Part shown: in pieces, positions 35,611-48,333 of the stretch
How the letters are laid out: every line of letters begins with the position of its first letter
Numbering within the stretch: the first letter of the stretch is position 1
Origin: Methanobacteriota archaeon
GTDB taxonomy: Archaea > Thermoplasmatota > Thermoplasmata > Thermoplasmatales > GCA-001856825
Assembly: GCA_017857235.1 (NCBI GenBank)
Contig: JAFMDN010000005.1
Span: 1 to 62,874 of the forward strand
DNA: 62,874 nt
Direction of reading: 5' to 3'
Program-made: the position numbers and the translations under genes
Notes under the pieces: generated by a model
What the model saw: only the letters and a program-made list of their open reading frames with translations
What the model was told of the DNA's origin: nothing
Database searches by the model: none

Positions 35611-35730
35611 TAGTTAGTAATGAATAACGGTTTATTTAACCTAACGGGATATAATTCCTGACAAAATTGGTGGTTTTGATTTCTTTTATGAAATAAAATA
35701 GATAATAAAGAGAGGGGATTTCATAAAACT

Positions 35731-35752
35731 TATATATCATGATAGTGATATA
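35731..35752. promoter_or_regulatory. TATA-box region overlapping inverted repeat TATATCA-N6-TGATATA, candidate RHH autoregulatory operator
   Basis: cttatatatcatgatagtgatatattg about 26-48 bp upstream of the RHH start codon. Confidence 0.5.
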
Positions 35753-35778
35753 TTGTCTGACAAATCTAGGGAAGTGAA

Positions 35779-36135
35779 ATGACTTTGTCAGATGAAAAAT
35801 CACAATCAAGAATTACAGTTCGATTACCCCCAGAGTCATTGGAGAAAATAGAAAGACTCATAGCCGAAGGCAAATTCAAAAATTTATCTGATTTTATTAG
35901 GCAAGCTATTGATTCATTCCTAGAAGAGCTCGCACATGAGGGACCAGCGCAAAAGGTAAGCGTGAGGTTATCAAGGAGCGAAATGACTCAAATTATAAAC
36001 GCCATAGAAAATGGAGAGGCTGTTGATGAGGAGGATTTAATAAGGATAGCCGTGAGAGAATATATTAGAAGAAGGTTAAGAGAAATTCAAAACGAAAATC
36101 TAAGAAAGGATGCAGGCAATGAAGGGTTCCAATAA
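35779..36135 (+). CDS. Tandem ribbon-helix-helix (CopG/Arc-like) regulator
   Basis: Two RHH units: SRITVRLPPESLEKIERLIAEGKFKNLSDFIRQAIDSFLEE and QKVSVRLSRSEMTQIINAIENGEAVDEEDLIRIAVREYIRRRL. Confidence 0.85.
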   Translation: MTLSDEKSQSRITVRLPPESLEKIERLIAEGKFKNLSDFIRQAIDSFLEELAHEGPAQKVSVRLSRSEMTQIINAIENGEAVDEEDLIRIAVREYIRRRLREIQNENLRKDAGNEGFQ

Positions 36136-36976
36136 TGAAGAGATAAGAATCATTGGAATTGGAGAATACTCTTCTAACCTAATATCTAAATTGACGGAAC
36201 AATTTGAAACAATTTCCATATTGAACAAGCACCATTCTAACATAGAGAATAGAGTTATTTTTGTTATGAAGGAATTTGATTATACAGTATCTCAGGAAAT
36301 TAATTCAATCCTTGAATACGAAAGGGAAAATCTTCTAAAATTTACCTTTGCCAAGGTCTCCTTTGTGGTTACACAAGTGGGGGATAAATTCAATGAAGTA
36401 TTTGCTAGGGCCCTTTGCAATTTTCTTTCCAGGCGTGGTAGTTTTGTAGTTTTATTACTAGTTATACCACTTGGAATGAGCGTAAATAGATATACAGATT
36501 ATATCAAAGATGTTAGAGAAAGCGTGGACATTATCGAAATAACAGATCCAGACGAAATAATATCCAAAGAAAGCTCATATAAAATAAATGAAATTTCCGA
36601 AATTTATACAGAAAGAATTGAACAACTACTATACACATTGAAACTTATATTAAATAATGGAAACCTGCTAGGTTTTAACTTGAGAGATTTAAAGGAAATG
36701 TCTGGTATTTTTGGGCCACTTCGTGTCATAACTATAAAATATGGTATAAGCAACTTCCAAATCCTGGAAAGGGATGTAAAAGCTGCAGATAGCATATTCA
36801 AACCCGATTATGTAAGGAGGGTTTATGTTATATTAATATACAACCAGAATAATTCTGTCACAGATGCCCTCGGAATATTGAAGTATCTTAAGTCTAAATA
36901 TCAGGAGGTTAGGAATGCGTTTTACAGAAGTGATGATGATTTCGGAGCTATTTTGATATATTCTCTGACTTCATAG
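36110..36976 (+). CDS. Putative degenerate FtsZ/tubulin-fold protein (pseudo-GTPase)
   Basis: Collinear with FtsZ from memory: IRIIGIGEYSSNLISKL (beta1/T1), KVSFVVTQVGDKFNEVFARALCNFLSRRGSFVVLLLVIPLGM (T4 region, GGGTGTG absent), VDIIEITDPDEI, NLLGFNLRDLKEMSG (T7 region), VRRVYVILIYNQNNSVTDALGILKYL...GAILIYSLTS (C-terminal domain). Confidence 0.65.
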   Translation: MQAMKGSNNEEIRIIGIGEYSSNLISKLTEQFETISILNKHHSNIENRVIFVMKEFDYTVSQEINSILEYERENLLKFTFAKVSFVVTQVGDKFNEVFARALCNFLSRRGSFVVLLLVIPLGMSVNRYTDYIKDVRESVDIIEITDPDEIISKESSYKINEISEIYTERIEQLLYTLKLILNNGNLLGFNLRDLKEMSGIFGPLRVITIKYGISNFQILERDVKAADSIFKPDYVRRVYVILIYNQNNSVTDALGILKYLKSKYQEVRNAFYRSDDDFGAILIYSLTS

Positions 36977-37029: not shown

Positions 37030-40000
37030 ATGCCCAACCCTTTCGCCGAATCTACAAAAATAGCAAAAAAACTACAAGAAGAAGCTAAAAAAATCCAAGA
37101 AACTAGAAATAGTCTTGCTAAAGAGCTCGAAGAATTAGAGAAATTTTTACCCATTCTAAAAAGGTTGAATGCTAACATCCAGAAAGAAGAATATGCAATA
37201 AATTCAATTAAGGAATCGCTAAATAAGAAAGCTTTGGATCTTGATGGAGTAAGGAATTCACTAGATGTTTTAAGACATGATTTATTGGAAGAATTTCAAA
37301 GATCGATTAATGAGAAAATCTCTAAAGGTCTTAAGAAGTTATTGGAAACCTATAAGGATACATCATTAGAAATTAAAATACAGGAATTTTTAAAGCTGGC
37401 AGAATCAGATTACAGATTGGAGGATGTCACAAAAATAATAAACTCTTTTGAGGAAATATTCCAATTTATAAAGGCTAGGATTAAGTGCGAAATCTCAGAC
37501 CCATTGTCAGAATTTGACAATTGTGTAAACTATTTAAACGAAATAAAAAGAGATTACTCCTATAAATTGCAAAAACTATTGATGGAAGTATCAAAAAGTG
37601 AGGCCTTTTTAATAAGGAATAAAATAGATTTTAATAACTTAGCTGAGTTGAAAGAAAAATCTAGAGATTATTATAAAAACATAGAACTTGATAAATCCAT
37701 ATCTTCTTTGGAAGAATACAATAATAAACTAAAGGAGTTAATTGAACAGAAATTAGAAAAAGACTTAGAAGAAATAAAGGCAAAGCTTTCAAAATTGGAA
37801 GGGAAAGGTGTTGATGTCTCACCCATAAAGGAAAGTTTGTTATCCATAGATATAAAGAACTATGAAGATGCATCTAAAACTTATCAGATGCTTAAGAAAC
37901 TTAATGATCAGCTTGATACCCTCCTGCTGGACTTCGCATTAAAAAAATTAGCCACTATAAATTCTAAGGTTGACTCCCTTCAGCCATTGATAATAGGTCA
38001 AGGGGTTAAAAATGAAATAGAAGATATTAGGAATTTGATAAAATCTCAGAAGATAGAAGATGCCATTATCAAGATGAACATTCTGGAAAGTAACTTAGAT
38101 AATCTTAAAAATGCAATAGCTAACATAAAGAACGAGTTAAAGAATTATGCGACCATTGTTGAAGAGAATCAAAATTTATTTACAAAGGAGATATTAAATC
38201 AATTCAGGAGTCTTTCAAGTTCAGAGAAAATTGATTTGGAGAAATGGAATGAGCTTAAGGAAGCCTTAGATATTGCCATTAAAGGGAAGATAAATGAAAT
38301 GAAAGGTGAAATAAAAGGGGCTACGGAATTAATTGAAAAAATTGGAATTAAGATACCGGTTCATCCTGATTTTTCTAAATTCGATACAGGAAAAAATATT
38401 GTTGAACAGTTCAAAGAATTGAGTGAAATTTATTATAAAATAGCCGATGAATTATCTAAAAGCTACCTAAGCATGATTAACCAATTTAGAGAACTGGATG
38501 TTGATCAAGAATGCCCTAATCCTGAAAGAAACCTCAAGTTTTTAATCAACAATTATAGTACATGCGAGCAAAAACTCATTTCCAAAGCTAATGTAGAACT
38601 AGAAAATCTTTTTAATGATTTAAGAAAATTAAATGAAAAACTTTCCATTATTAATCTGAAATTCCAAAGGATTAATGAGAGCTTGCTGAGGATATACAGC
38701 ACTAATAATCTCCTTTTGAAAATTAGGCTTTTCCGTGAAATTAAGGATAAAGAATTCGGATTAGTAAAATATATGATAGAGGCAATAGAAGGCATCTTAA
38801 ATTTAAATTCCCAAAATAAGAGTGAAGCTGAAAGTGTTGATTATCTTATTACTTTATATGAATCATATAAAAACTCCGTATCAAAATCAATTGAGAAAAT
38901 TATTAATGGCACGTTAGATCTAATGAAATTCGAACTTGGAATTCAGGATAAGAATGCAATAAAGGAGGATGCTGATAAGATTTTAGAAGTTAAGTTATCT
39001 GAACAATTAAATAAAATAAAAGTTTTCAAATGGTATAGAGTTCTGATAAATGAAGATAAAAATGCAGATGATCTATTATCTGTGATCGCAAAAAGGGTAT
39101 TACAGTTATATTACACCAATAAGATATCATCTGAAGCATTATTGAAAATAATATGCCTTCAAGATGGAGATTTAGATTTAAATTCATTGGAATTGACTCC
39201 GGATTTAATAATAAAAAGGGGCATAGACGAAGAATTTAAAATTTTCTTCAACGTCATTAATGAAGGAAGTTTTCAGGATGCCTTAAGAGATAAGGTAATT
39301 AAACTGATTAGGGAAAATGGCATAGATAAAAAAACTGAAGACTTATTATTGAGAAATATTACCGCGGATCCTGCAGGCACATATTTTAAAGTATTAAGTG
39401 AAATTGCAAAAAGGAACAATGATTATGTTTTGGCAGAAGTAACCAATGTTATATTGCATTATATGTCAATAGATTTTGTTAAGGATTATATTCTAAGGGA
39501 TGCTACTTTATCTAAAAAATATGACGCGGAAGTGTTAAATAAAATAACAAACAACGATTACCTTGGTGCATATTTAGGATTGTATGAAATACTTAAAGAT
39601 TATTTGCCACTATTCGGTCTATTAAAGATTGCAAATCATTATTACGCTCTTTTTTCGAGCGATTCAGATTTCAAAAACAAATATGGAAAGGAGCTAGAAA
39701 AACTTGAAGATTCAATCAGGAAACTAGATTTTACAAATCTCTTCAATTCTTTAAATTTCTTGATATCAGAATATAATCGCTATAAGAATGAAACAGCGGA
39801 TGAAAAAGTTCAAAAGAATTTAAAATTTGTAAGGGGCTTAATAGGTATTAATATCCTTTTGGGAAATTATTGTGCTAATGTTAATTTGGACTTTGAAGAA
39901 TCATACAGAGTTGTTGTACAAAAAGCTAAGAACGATCTCAAGGAATTGGGTTCTGAATTAAATTATGATCTAAAATTATACGTAGGAGTTCCTGAAAAGA

Positions 40001-40887
40001 TTGGAGAGTACCTTTTAACCGAGAAGATAAATATCCTGAAATCCTACTTCAATATAATTATAAAGTTAAGTTCAGACATCGAAAATGCACTACTCCATTT
40101 CGCTGAACCGGAAACAATGAAAACAAAGAATAAAATAGATTCGATCAATATTACAAATATTAATGAAGTTTTTAATAATTTAAGGCTTTTAAAGGAGGAA
40201 ATTAATGAAAAAGTTAAAAAGTATTCCTTATCTATTGATAAGAATATAGAACCTGTCCTAAATGGTGAAATAGATTATTCTACATTGTTTGTCGAGCTGG
40301 TCTCAAAACTTGTATTGCCAAATGAATTCATTGAAAAGATAATAGATAAAGATAAAATTGCAGAAAGAATCAAGGAATTAAATTCGAATGGCTACAATTT
40401 AGCCCCAGATGATGTAGATGCTCTAAAAGAACTTGCAAAAGAATTGAAGCCTGAAATCATTTTGCAGTATGAGAAAGCTAAAGGGGAAAGAAAATTCCTC
40501 TTGAAAATAAATATTACCAATGCAGGAAATTGGAAACTCTATGATGCCACTGTAGCGTGGCTAGATAAGGAAAAAACAATTGGCGATATAGAACCTAAGA
40601 AGATAATTGAATTAAATTATGATTATAACATTAAGAAAGATGAACCGTTTAAGGTGTATGGTCAAACGCTTGATTTTTCAACATATGAGAAGGTATTTAC
40701 TATTAAAAAACTGGAAACTCTATTAAAGTTTAAATCAAATTCTAGATTAGTATGCGCCTCATGCAGGGGAGCAATTCTGCCCGGTATTGATGCTGGTAAA
40801 TGCGAATATTGCGGTTCTATGTATCATCTAAAATGTGCCGAAAGATCTAAATCTTGTAAGGTCTGTGGGATTGAATTCAACCTATGA
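37030..40887 (+). CDS. Giant coiled-coil protein with C-terminal Ig-like segment and RING/PHD-like zinc finger
   Basis: 1285 aa, mostly charged helical sequence; C-terminus LVCASCRGAILPGIDAGKCEYCGSMYHLKCAERSKSCKVCGIEFNL = C-x2-C-x12-C-x2-C-x4-H-x2-C-x6-C-x2-C. Confidence 0.8.
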   Translation: MPNPFAESTKIAKKLQEEAKKIQETRNSLAKELEELEKFLPILKRLNANIQKEEYAINSIKESLNKKALDLDGVRNSLDVLRHDLLEEFQRSINEKISKGLKKLLETYKDTSLEIKIQEFLKLAESDYRLEDVTKIINSFEEIFQFIKARIKCEISDPLSEFDNCVNYLNEIKRDYSYKLQKLLMEVSKSEAFLIRNKIDFNNLAELKEKSRDYYKNIELDKSISSLEEYNNKLKELIEQKLEKDLEEIKAKLSKLEGKGVDVSPIKESLLSIDIKNYEDASKTYQMLKKLNDQLDTLLLDFALKKLATINSKVDSLQPLIIGQGVKNEIEDIRNLIKSQKIEDAIIKMNILESNLDNLKNAIANIKNELKNYATIVEENQNLFTKEILNQFRSLSSSEKIDLEKWNELKEALDIAIKGKINEMKGEIKGATELIEKIGIKIPVHPDFSKFDTGKNIVEQFKELSEIYYKIADELSKSYLSMINQFRELDVDQECPNPERNLKFLINNYSTCEQKLISKANVELENLFNDLRKLNEKLSIINLKFQRINESLLRIYSTNNLLLKIRLFREIKDKEFGLVKYMIEAIEGILNLNSQNKSEAESVDYLITLYESYKNSVSKSIEKIINGTLDLMKFELGIQDKNAIKEDADKILEVKLSEQLNKIKVFKWYRVLINEDKNADDLLSVIAKRVLQLYYTNKISSEALLKIICLQDGDLDLNSLELTPDLIIKRGIDEEFKIFFNVINEGSFQDALRDKVIKLIRENGIDKKTEDLLLRNITADPAGTYFKVLSEIAKRNNDYVLAEVTNVILHYMSIDFVKDYILRDATLSKKYDAEVLNKITNNDYLGAYLGLYEILKDYLPLFGLLKIANHYYALFSSDSDFKNKYGKELEKLEDSIRKLDFTNLFNSLNFLISEYNRYKNETADEKVQKNLKFVRGLIGINILLGNYCANVNLDFEESYRVVVQKAKNDLKELGSELNYDLKLYVGVPEKIGEYLLTEKINILKSYFNIIIKLSSDIENALLHFAEPETMKTKNKIDSINITNINEVFNNLRLLKEEINEKVKKYSLSIDKNIEPVLNGEIDYSTLFVELVSKLVLPNEFIEKIIDKDKIAERIKELNSNGYNLAPDDVDALKELAKELKPEIILQYEKAKGERKFLLKINITNAGNWKLYDATVAWLDKEKTIGDIEPKKIIELNYDYNIKKDEPFKVYGQTLDFSTYEKVFTIKKLETLLKFKSNSRLVCASCRGAILPGIDAGKCEYCGSMYHLKCAERSKSCKVCGIEFNL

Positions 40888-42335
40888 GATACATATTGAG
40901 AAAGTACGGAGAATTTAATGGATTAAAGGTACCAACAATTATACGTGCTTTGAAGGACCTCATTCCAAATGAAATTCCTTTGGAATATAGGAATAAGGAT
41001 ATATTTGAAACCGATTTTCTAATCATAATTCAAAATTATAACAGATACAACATAAGGGAATTAGTATCCACAGTTTTAAAATTAAGGAGGAAGGATCTTG
41101 GAAAGCTTATTTATCTGCCAGGTCCATTCAACCCTTACGATTTCCCTGTACTTTTCTATTTGGGCATTGACATACTTGATGCAAGTTTTTTAGACATAAT
41201 GGGTGAGGAAAGTTGTATATATCCTACAGGAATAAATAATGGAGTAAATTGCAGGGAATGGAATAATAGACTTTTAGACAGAATAATGAATGAGATAGAA
41301 ATTTCTTTGAAAACGTTCAATTTCAGGGAACTTGTTGAATTTTATTCACATTCTTCATTTTCCCAAGAGATCTTAAGGCTTTTGGATATGGAGTACTATG
41401 ATGAAATTAAAGAATTCCTTGACCATGAACCAAAAAATTTAAAATCATCTGGCTTAGAAAGTATTTTTAGAGCTGAATTTAGGGAGTACAGGGAACGAAT
41501 AATGAACTTTAAACAGAAAGCTAACAATTTGCTTTTGATCCCTTGTTCTGCCGTTAAACCATATTCAATGTCGAAGTCACACAGAGTTTTGCACAGCTAT
41601 ATCGGAAAATATTTAAAATATATCGATGAGGTAATAGTAACTTCTCCACTAGGCCTTGTTCCGAGAGAAATTGAGTCATTTTATCCTGCGGCCTTTTACG
41701 ATATACCGGTAACAGGATATTGGTTTGAAGAAGAGAAAAAAATGTTGATAGAAACTGCTAAAAATTATTTCAAAGATAAAAAATACGACAGAGTTTTTTA
41801 TATTTTACCGGAGGGGGAAGATGCAATTTTAAATATCTTCGATGAAAAAATGGGAATCAGGGGGAAATTGAATGCAGAAAACTCTGAAAAATTGGTTCAA
41901 ATTTTAGAAAGAGAAATTGTAAAAAAAAGTTTCGATAAAAGGAAAATTGAAATCTTAAATATACTCAATTATTACTACGAGATAGTTCTTGATAATGAGG
42001 ATATAAAAATAGTTGATCAGGGGAATAGGGAAATTGTTTATGTCAATGGTATTGAATTTGCTAAAATAACCAGAAATGGCCCATATCCAATGAAAGGGCT
42101 TGCCCAATACCTAGCTTCAAATAGAAGAAAAGTTATTGAAATAAAGGAATCCGTAAAGTCATCAAACATATTCATACCTGTTGTGGCAGAAATTTCCGAT
42201 GATATAAGACCAGGTGACCCAGTAATAATTCTAAACAATGGAAAGATTGAGGGATATGGGTTTGCTGCTATATCAAAAAATGATTTAAATTATATTAAAA
42301 AGGGAATTGCTGTTAGAGATTTTAAGAGGTTGTAA
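40884..42335 (+). CDS. ArcS-like (archaeosine synthase / TgtA2-type) protein with C-terminal PUA domain
   Basis: LLLIPCSAVKPYSMSKSHRVLHSYIGKYLKYIDEVIVTSPLGLVPREIESFYPAAFYDIPVTGYW; PUA-like EFAKITRNGPYPMKGLAQYLASN...VVAEISDDIRPGDPVIILNNGKIEGYG. Confidence 0.85.
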   Translation: MRYILRKYGEFNGLKVPTIIRALKDLIPNEIPLEYRNKDIFETDFLIIIQNYNRYNIRELVSTVLKLRRKDLGKLIYLPGPFNPYDFPVLFYLGIDILDASFLDIMGEESCIYPTGINNGVNCREWNNRLLDRIMNEIEISLKTFNFRELVEFYSHSSFSQEILRLLDMEYYDEIKEFLDHEPKNLKSSGLESIFRAEFREYRERIMNFKQKANNLLLIPCSAVKPYSMSKSHRVLHSYIGKYLKYIDEVIVTSPLGLVPREIESFYPAAFYDIPVTGYWFEEEKKMLIETAKNYFKDKKYDRVFYILPEGEDAILNIFDEKMGIRGKLNAENSEKLVQILEREIVKKSFDKRKIEILNILNYYYEIVLDNEDIKIVDQGNREIVYVNGIEFAKITRNGPYPMKGLAQYLASNRRKVIEIKESVKSSNIFIPVVAEISDDIRPGDPVIILNNGKIEGYGFAAISKNDLNYIKKGIAVRDFKRL

Positions 42336-47490: not shown

Positions 47491-48333
47491 TTAAAATTGG
47501 GATTGTGAAACAAATATTGTATAAACTTGTAGGTTGACAAAACCTATTCCACTAAATGAAAGCATTAACTCACCATTGTGGAAAGAAGGTATTAGGCTAA
47601 AAGAATTTGCAGTCTGATTTAGATAAGAATAAAAATACCTATTCAAGAATTGATATGAGTTTGCCTTTATAATTAAACTAGATCCATCAACCATAAAGGC
47701 ATAACTGTTTCTTGCCAAGGTTTCCAAACTTATAGTCACTGGACTCCCACTTCCCAAAATTAAGGGCCCACCAACTAAGTTTATAAGAGTTATAGTAATA
47801 TTTGGATGTGATTCCACCGGGGTGTTGATTGAAAAAAGTTCGCTTTCCATCACACTACCTATTTTGCCACCGCTCCCAACCTGATTGAAAATTAATGATG
47901 AATATTCATAAACATATTCCTCATCCGTAAAATATCTATTATTTGTATAAACTTGTATAGAACCACCTACTGTGACATTGGTATTATTATATATAACGGA
48001 TATAGTTCCTTCGCCATTGGTACCTGTAGGTGGAGTTATATTTATCGATCCATAGGTTGGTGTGGAAAATAGTGGTACATAATTAGATGCTAGGTCAAAT
48101 GGCACTAAAAGGATTGATTGTGCCTTATAATTAGAAATAAGAAATGATATATCACTTGTGAGCTGTACCATACTATTTAAAATTCCTTCACTGTATTGCT
48201 CTTCATAAGATTGCATGGTGGCAGGGACATATGTTGTAATTACTATTCCCAGTACAGTGACGAATATAAGTATTGCAAATATAGTACCAACAGCACTGGC
48301 TACCCCTTCCTCTTTATACAATACTTGATTCAT
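47491..48333 (-). CDS. Type IV pilin-like secreted protein
   Basis: MNQVLYKEEGVASAVGTIFAILIFVTVLGIVITTYV class III-like N-terminus; last gene of pilus-type operon. Confidence 0.75.
   Translation of the reverse strand: MNQVLYKEEGVASAVGTIFAILIFVTVLGIVITTYVPATMQSYEEQYSEGILNSMVQLTSDISFLISNYKAQSILLVPFDLASNYVPLFSTPTYGSINITPPTGTNGEGTISVIYNNTNVTVGGSIQVYTNNRYFTDEEYVYEYSSLIFNQVGSGGKIGSVMESELFSINTPVESHPNITITLINLVGGPLILGSGSPVTISLETLARNSYAFMVDGSSLIIKANSYQFLNRYFYSYLNQTANSFSLIPSFHNGELMLSFSGIGFVNLQVYTIFVSQSQF

Follow-up and report, generated by a model that had tools for sequence, protein, structure and literature searches.

The 288-aa protein encoded at positions 36110–36976 of the window (the whole 62,874-nucleotide stretch of DNA analysed here) is very probably a degenerate FtsZ: it appears to be this lineage's version of the FtsZ that lies behind a CdrS-like ribbon-helix-helix (RHH) gene, in a decayed FtsZ2-type operon slot. 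Homology, origin, motif loss, purifying selection and the conservation of operon and operator are all read here from sequence comparison. The explanation that we favour, by a modest degree, is that the protein serves as a non-enzymatic, co-regulated partner of the intact FtsZ proteins of the same genome.

The operon and its source genome

The window contig (C7) belongs to a 1.28 Mb genome that is 89.5% complete. Its nearest relative is a deposited Thermoplasmata archaeon MAG (L006), in which the 288-aa protein is 84% identical. A preliminary description of this DNA had reported a tandem RHH gene whose frame overlaps that of the 288-aa open reading frame (ORF); both ORFs were recovered as described, sharing 26 bp (36110–36135), and the upstream product carries two RHH stretches. 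The features of the operon are as follows.

35730..35737, + strand: TATA-box-like TTATATAT, putative operon promoter (sequence; alignment of 12 family promoters)
35754..35762, no strand assigned: palindrome TGTCTGACA, proposed RHH operator, approximately at the expected transcription start (sole TGTCNGACA in the window)
35779..36135, + strand: tandem ribbon-helix-helix regulator, CdrS-like, 118 aa (Pfam RHH_1 E 5e-12, two RHH stretches)
36110..36976, + strand: 288-aa probable degenerate FtsZ (pseudo-FtsZ) (ORF; family profile, hhalign, tree)
36155..36178, + strand: T1-loop equivalent, GIGEYSSN replacing GxGGxGxN (profile and operon-FtsZ alignments)
36380..36400, + strand: T4-loop equivalent, GDKFNEV replacing GGGTGTG (profile and operon-FtsZ alignments)
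36665..36688, + strand: T7-loop equivalent LLGFNLRD, in which the second Asp is retained but Asn and the first Asp are not (family and operon-FtsZ alignments)
37030..40887, + strand: 1285-aa coiled-coil protein with a zinc-ribbon/RING-like C-terminus, gene 3 of the conserved run (Prok-RING_1 E 1.6e-4, under the curated cut-off)
40884..42335, + strand: 483-aa DUF5591 and PUA-domain protein, gene 4 of the conserved run (Pfam)

The 1285-aa coiled-coil protein (37030–40887) is tied to the operon in two families and may be a division scaffold. Elsewhere in the window, positions 47491–48333 encode a possible archaeal pilin-like protein with a hydrophobic N-terminal segment.

Relationship of the 288-aa protein to FtsZ

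Taken alone, the 288-aa sequence has no match in Pfam or the PDB. Neither PF00091 nor PF12327 matches it, and it is absent from the PF00091 search of the genome even at E 1. PF13809 (Tubulin_2) does not appear among the Pfam matches of any family member at E up to 1, and single members scanned against Pfam and NCBIfam gave just sub-threshold matches with unrelated names. A profile built from ten family members and searched with HMMER against 177,635 PDB sequences placed FtsZ on top (E 4.4e-4), with further FtsZ entries at 0.005–0.014. The match forms one colinear stretch, profile positions 7–197, spanning T1 to T7 of bacterial FtsZ structures; this search listed FtsZ and no CetZ. The preliminary description had matched the protein to archaeal FtsZ over its whole length, with IRIIGIGEYSSN at T1, VSFVVTQVGDKFNEVF in the T4 region, VDIIEITDPDEI, and NLLGFNLRDLKEMSG at T7. 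These pairings were returned by the blind HMMER profile alignment, and the correspondences at T1, T4 and T7 recurred in the alignment with the operon FtsZs.

Profile–profile comparison with hhalign matched the 288-aa family to the RHH-operon FtsZs at 91.8% (E 7e-7) and to a second degenerate FtsZ type at 97.5% (E 7e-12), whereas the controls, 13 unrelated families and four reversed alignments, all fell below 1%. Against a narrow FtsZ1-type alignment alone the result was weak (1.8–6.4%), the broader operon set being needed for a clear one. Among the ORFs examined, the intact FtsZ that scored best with the family profile came from an RHH operon in the sister family (E 8e-11). The reverse search, in which the order's operon FtsZs supplied the profile and the window's own genome was the target, did not recover the 288-aa protein, so the similarity lies at the edge of sequence methods. 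AlphaFold with a two-sequence input reached a pLDDT of 36.6, and Foldseek with that model returned no match at E below 0.001; the tubulin/FtsZ fold is therefore predicted from sequence rather than from a confident structure model.

Motif loss and residual conservation

Where FtsZ carries the T4 signature GGGTGTG, the window protein has GDKFNEV and most relatives have EG(K/R)FQE(T/A). In the T7 motif NxDxxD, the Asn is replaced by Gly188 and the first Asp by Asn190; Asp193 is kept and is invariant in the family. The alignments thus agree with the preliminary description, which had called the T4 glycine signature absent and the T7 Asn and first Asp replaced. Against the operon FtsZs, T3 is shortened, T6 reads DPDEI and T7 reads GFNLRD, and no tail follows the C-terminal domain. 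With a nucleotide face (T1, T3, T4 and T6) that has been either remodelled or removed and a T7 loop that has lost its catalytic residues, the protein is predicted not to hydrolyse GTP and not to bind it in the usual manner. Thirty-six residues are invariant in the family, and 13 of them fall within the 40 residues 183–222 around T7 (scan p 0.012), an enrichment noticed after the fact. The T7 side of FtsZ contacts the neighbouring subunit.

Distribution and selection

The 288-aa protein occurs in 13 of the 101 genomes of the order, all from the window's own family. Within that family, 13 of 15 genomes in four genera carry it, with 24–29% identity outside the genus; the two genomes lacking it are 82% and 52% complete. 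An RHH gene lies directly upstream on the same strand, with overlapping frames, at every family locus that has upstream DNA (12/12). Between the window and L006, dN is 0.09 and dS is 2.9 (saturated), giving a dN/dS of about 0.03 that resembles those of neighbouring housekeeping genes. This ratio and the family-wide retention indicate that the ORF is a functional gene under purifying selection.

Probable origin in the RHH operon of Thermoplasmata

Of 200 genomes from the class Thermoplasmata, 180 encode a homologue of the tandem RHH protein. In the neighbourhoods examined, the gene after it is usually an FtsZ, and all 28 that were scored have GGGTGTG or GGGSGTG at T4. The operon of the sister family (f4) consists of RHH, FtsZ, a long coiled coil with a Zn C-terminus and a DUF5591/PUA relative, which is the window order gene by gene, and its FtsZ is bona fide (PF00091 E 1e-36, FtsZ_C E 9e-16). 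The C-terminus of the 1285-aa protein shares 51% identity over 51 aa with gene 3 of the sister-family operon, and the 483-aa protein is 33–34% identical to gene 4 of these operons (E 3e-52 to 7e-59).

Phylogenetic analysis also groups the 288-aa family with the order's operon FtsZs (support 99/99), in a tree whose other members were the FtsZ1-type genes and a single additional full-length paralog, with types B and C (described below) left out. Placement beside the FtsZ1-type genes is less probable, although the AU test does not reject it (p 0.108), and placement beside the other full-length paralog is borderline (p 0.0495). When all fast degenerate types are included, long branches join and the placement of the 288-aa family is lost. 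Gene order is the firmer argument for the origin. Together with the profile searches and the phylogeny, it supports the suggestion, made in the preliminary description, of a diverged CdrS-FtsZ2-like locus.

Across the class, the slot behind the RHH gene is found in several states. It is intact in most families. In family f3 T4 is kept and T7 is lost (LHISYSE, FHISFSE, ININFSE); at L201 (1581–2701, family f11) the RHH gene precedes a shortened, 266-aa FtsZ relative that keeps GGGTGTG; in the window's family the slot holds the probable pseudo-FtsZ; and in family f6 FtsZ is gone, the RHH gene being followed by a gene that, read from its sequence, resembles pheT. Among the f6 loci (L190–L199), some come from genomes with no PF00091 match at all, and several RHH promoters still carry the palindrome.

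Its gene context and its lower similarity to Methanocaldococcus FtsZ1 lead us to assign the slot, with moderate confidence, to the FtsZ2 type. PMC9871819 reports RHH_1 genes beside archaeal ftsZ2; the three intact FtsZ genes of the window genome form a clade of their own that excludes the operon FtsZs; one of them (L001) is followed by a gene resembling spt5; and another (L002) scores 381 bits against Methanocaldococcus FtsZ1, compared with only 248 bits for an operon FtsZ.

Other FtsZ-family genes

A search of the rest of the genome for canonical FtsZ, as proposed in the preliminary description, found three intact genes, all FtsZ1-type, and SepF is also encoded; the division ring can therefore do without a GTPase activity of the 288-aa protein. 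Two additional degenerate types were observed in the same genome. Type B forms a second RHH and FtsZ-like pair (L004 1225–2407, contig C5; 264 aa), with T4 reading GMGGSSAYA in the window genome and GGGTGSG in other genera; it lacks the usual C-terminal domain, and its promoter lacks TGTCNGACA. Type C, the third degenerate FtsZ (L005 1102–1854, contig C12; 250 aa), has SSPAGLFSS at T4 and adjoins an Orc1/Cdc6-like ATPase gene, an arrangement conserved family-wide; the type C start codon overlaps with TGTCNGACA. Families f3 and f4 contain one more full-length FtsZ paralog, about 355 aa long (L155, L157, L160, L163, L165, L166 and L172), which was not found in the window's family; several copies have TGTCNGACA at the promoter.

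A palindrome at RHH promoters

The palindrome TGTCTGACA lies about 20 bp downstream of the TATA-like box. TGTCNGACA is present in 11 of the 12 RHH promoters of the family and in 22 of 31 other RHH promoters, against an expectation of about 0.002 per promoter. Of 12 RHH genes examined in families f6 and f11, most without an FtsZ in the slot, 7 have it nearby. Other ORFs of the same loci, taken as a control, had it in 39 of 455 cases, a figure inflated by ORFs that share those intergenic regions. Genome-wide, TGTCWGACA is not enriched, with 5 sites observed and about 8.6 expected by base composition. Three of these five sites lie at FtsZ-family genes, namely the window operon, the intact L002 FtsZ and the type C start (P about 3e-8). 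Sites at RHH promoters that have no accompanying FtsZ speak for binding of TGTCNGACA by the RHH protein, and we propose the palindrome as its operator.

Proposed function and competing readings

In the mechanism that we propose, the 288-aa protein would retain the FtsZ backbone with a rebuilt or partly deleted nucleotide face and no T7 catalysis, and would be produced together with the RHH regulator, whose putative operator also fronts one of the three intact FtsZ1-type genes and the third degenerate type. Its conserved T7-side face may dock onto FtsZ1 subunits or filament ends, and the opposite face would be unable to accept a further subunit, so that FtsZ1 filaments would be capped or tuned. 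The capping or regulatory role is put forward tentatively, at somewhat less than even chances. The preliminary description had likewise suggested that the protein could be a regulator or scaffold.

The main rival, which we consider rather unlikely, is that the protein acts as a co-regulator, binding its translationally coupled RHH partner and changing how that partner binds DNA. It might, for example, sense free FtsZ, so that division genes would answer to the state of the ring. The RHH pairing with overlapping ORFs throughout the family would fit such a role, as would the type B pair in the same genome and the persistence of the RHH gene where FtsZ has been lost, which implies that the RHH protein has targets of its own. 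However, the class-wide norm is an RHH gene before an intact FtsZ, so co-expression alone accounts for the pairing. Less probable again is a structural filament subunit that does not hydrolyse GTP: it would polymerise, alone or with paralogs, and still bind some other nucleotide or ligand. A remodelled site of this kind, kept by selection, is suggested by the GxG in T1 and by a T4 stretch (Q..F.E) that is new and strictly conserved, but T3 is shortened and T4 and T6 are unrecognisable.

We give very little credence to a protein outside the FtsZ superfamily whose likeness to FtsZ reflects chance or a common Rossmann-like topology. No family model is significant with any single member, and the two-sequence AlphaFold model and Foldseek yielded nothing; these points are countered by the PDB match at E 4.4e-4, the 91.8% in hhalign with controls below 1%, the conserved gene order and the tree, which together argue that the likeness is not chance. 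A decaying pseudogene of an FtsZ2-type gene, as the loss of every catalytic motif might suggest, was dropped on the dN/dS of about 0.03 and is scarcely credible given a frame of 288–300 aa open in 13 of 15 genomes across four genera and 36 invariant residues.

Many archaea have both FtsZ1 and FtsZ2, and the need for both is still being worked out. A whole archaeal family may, as we tentatively suggest, have converted its FtsZ2-type division protein into a regulatory subunit that has lost GTPase activity and is controlled within an RHH/TGTCNGACA regulon spanning division genes, with intact, T7-lost, pseudo-FtsZ and gene-lost states represented in the class. An FtsZ2-type slot without a predicted GTPase that is nevertheless strongly selected offers a direct test of the GTP-independent part of FtsZ2 function. 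Furthermore, the common palindrome provides a testable division regulon for an RHH protein that is almost class-wide.

Comparison with known systems

FtsZl1 and FtsZl2 (Tubulin_2) are diverged prokaryotic members of the FtsZ/tubulin superfamily (PMC2875224); the window protein differs from them in having no Tubulin_2 match and another gene context. Plant chloroplast ARC3 contains an FtsZ-like domain and acts on FtsZ rings (PMC4593956 and references therein). The likeness to ARC3 is confined to the proposed mode of action, in which a divergent FtsZ domain works on genuine FtsZ; ARC3 is a plant protein with other domains and a separate origin.

The RHH-operon FtsZs of Thermoplasmata (L086–L114) occupy the same slot, and family f4 shares the four-gene order. 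Unlike the window protein, they keep GGGTGTG, mostly keep the T7 NxDxxD and are usually 320–380 aa long. The cdrS-ftsZ2 locus of haloarchaea is described in PMC7439475 and PMC8406309. As there, the window has an RHH gene directly upstream of, and probably co-transcribed with, an FtsZ-family gene, and haloarchaeal CdrS likewise acts on a further ftsZ gene. Haloferax CdrS is a 61-aa protein with a single RHH (PMC8406309), whereas the window encodes a 118-aa tandem RHH, an FtsZ partner lacking T4 and T7, and a coiled-coil/Zn gene after it.
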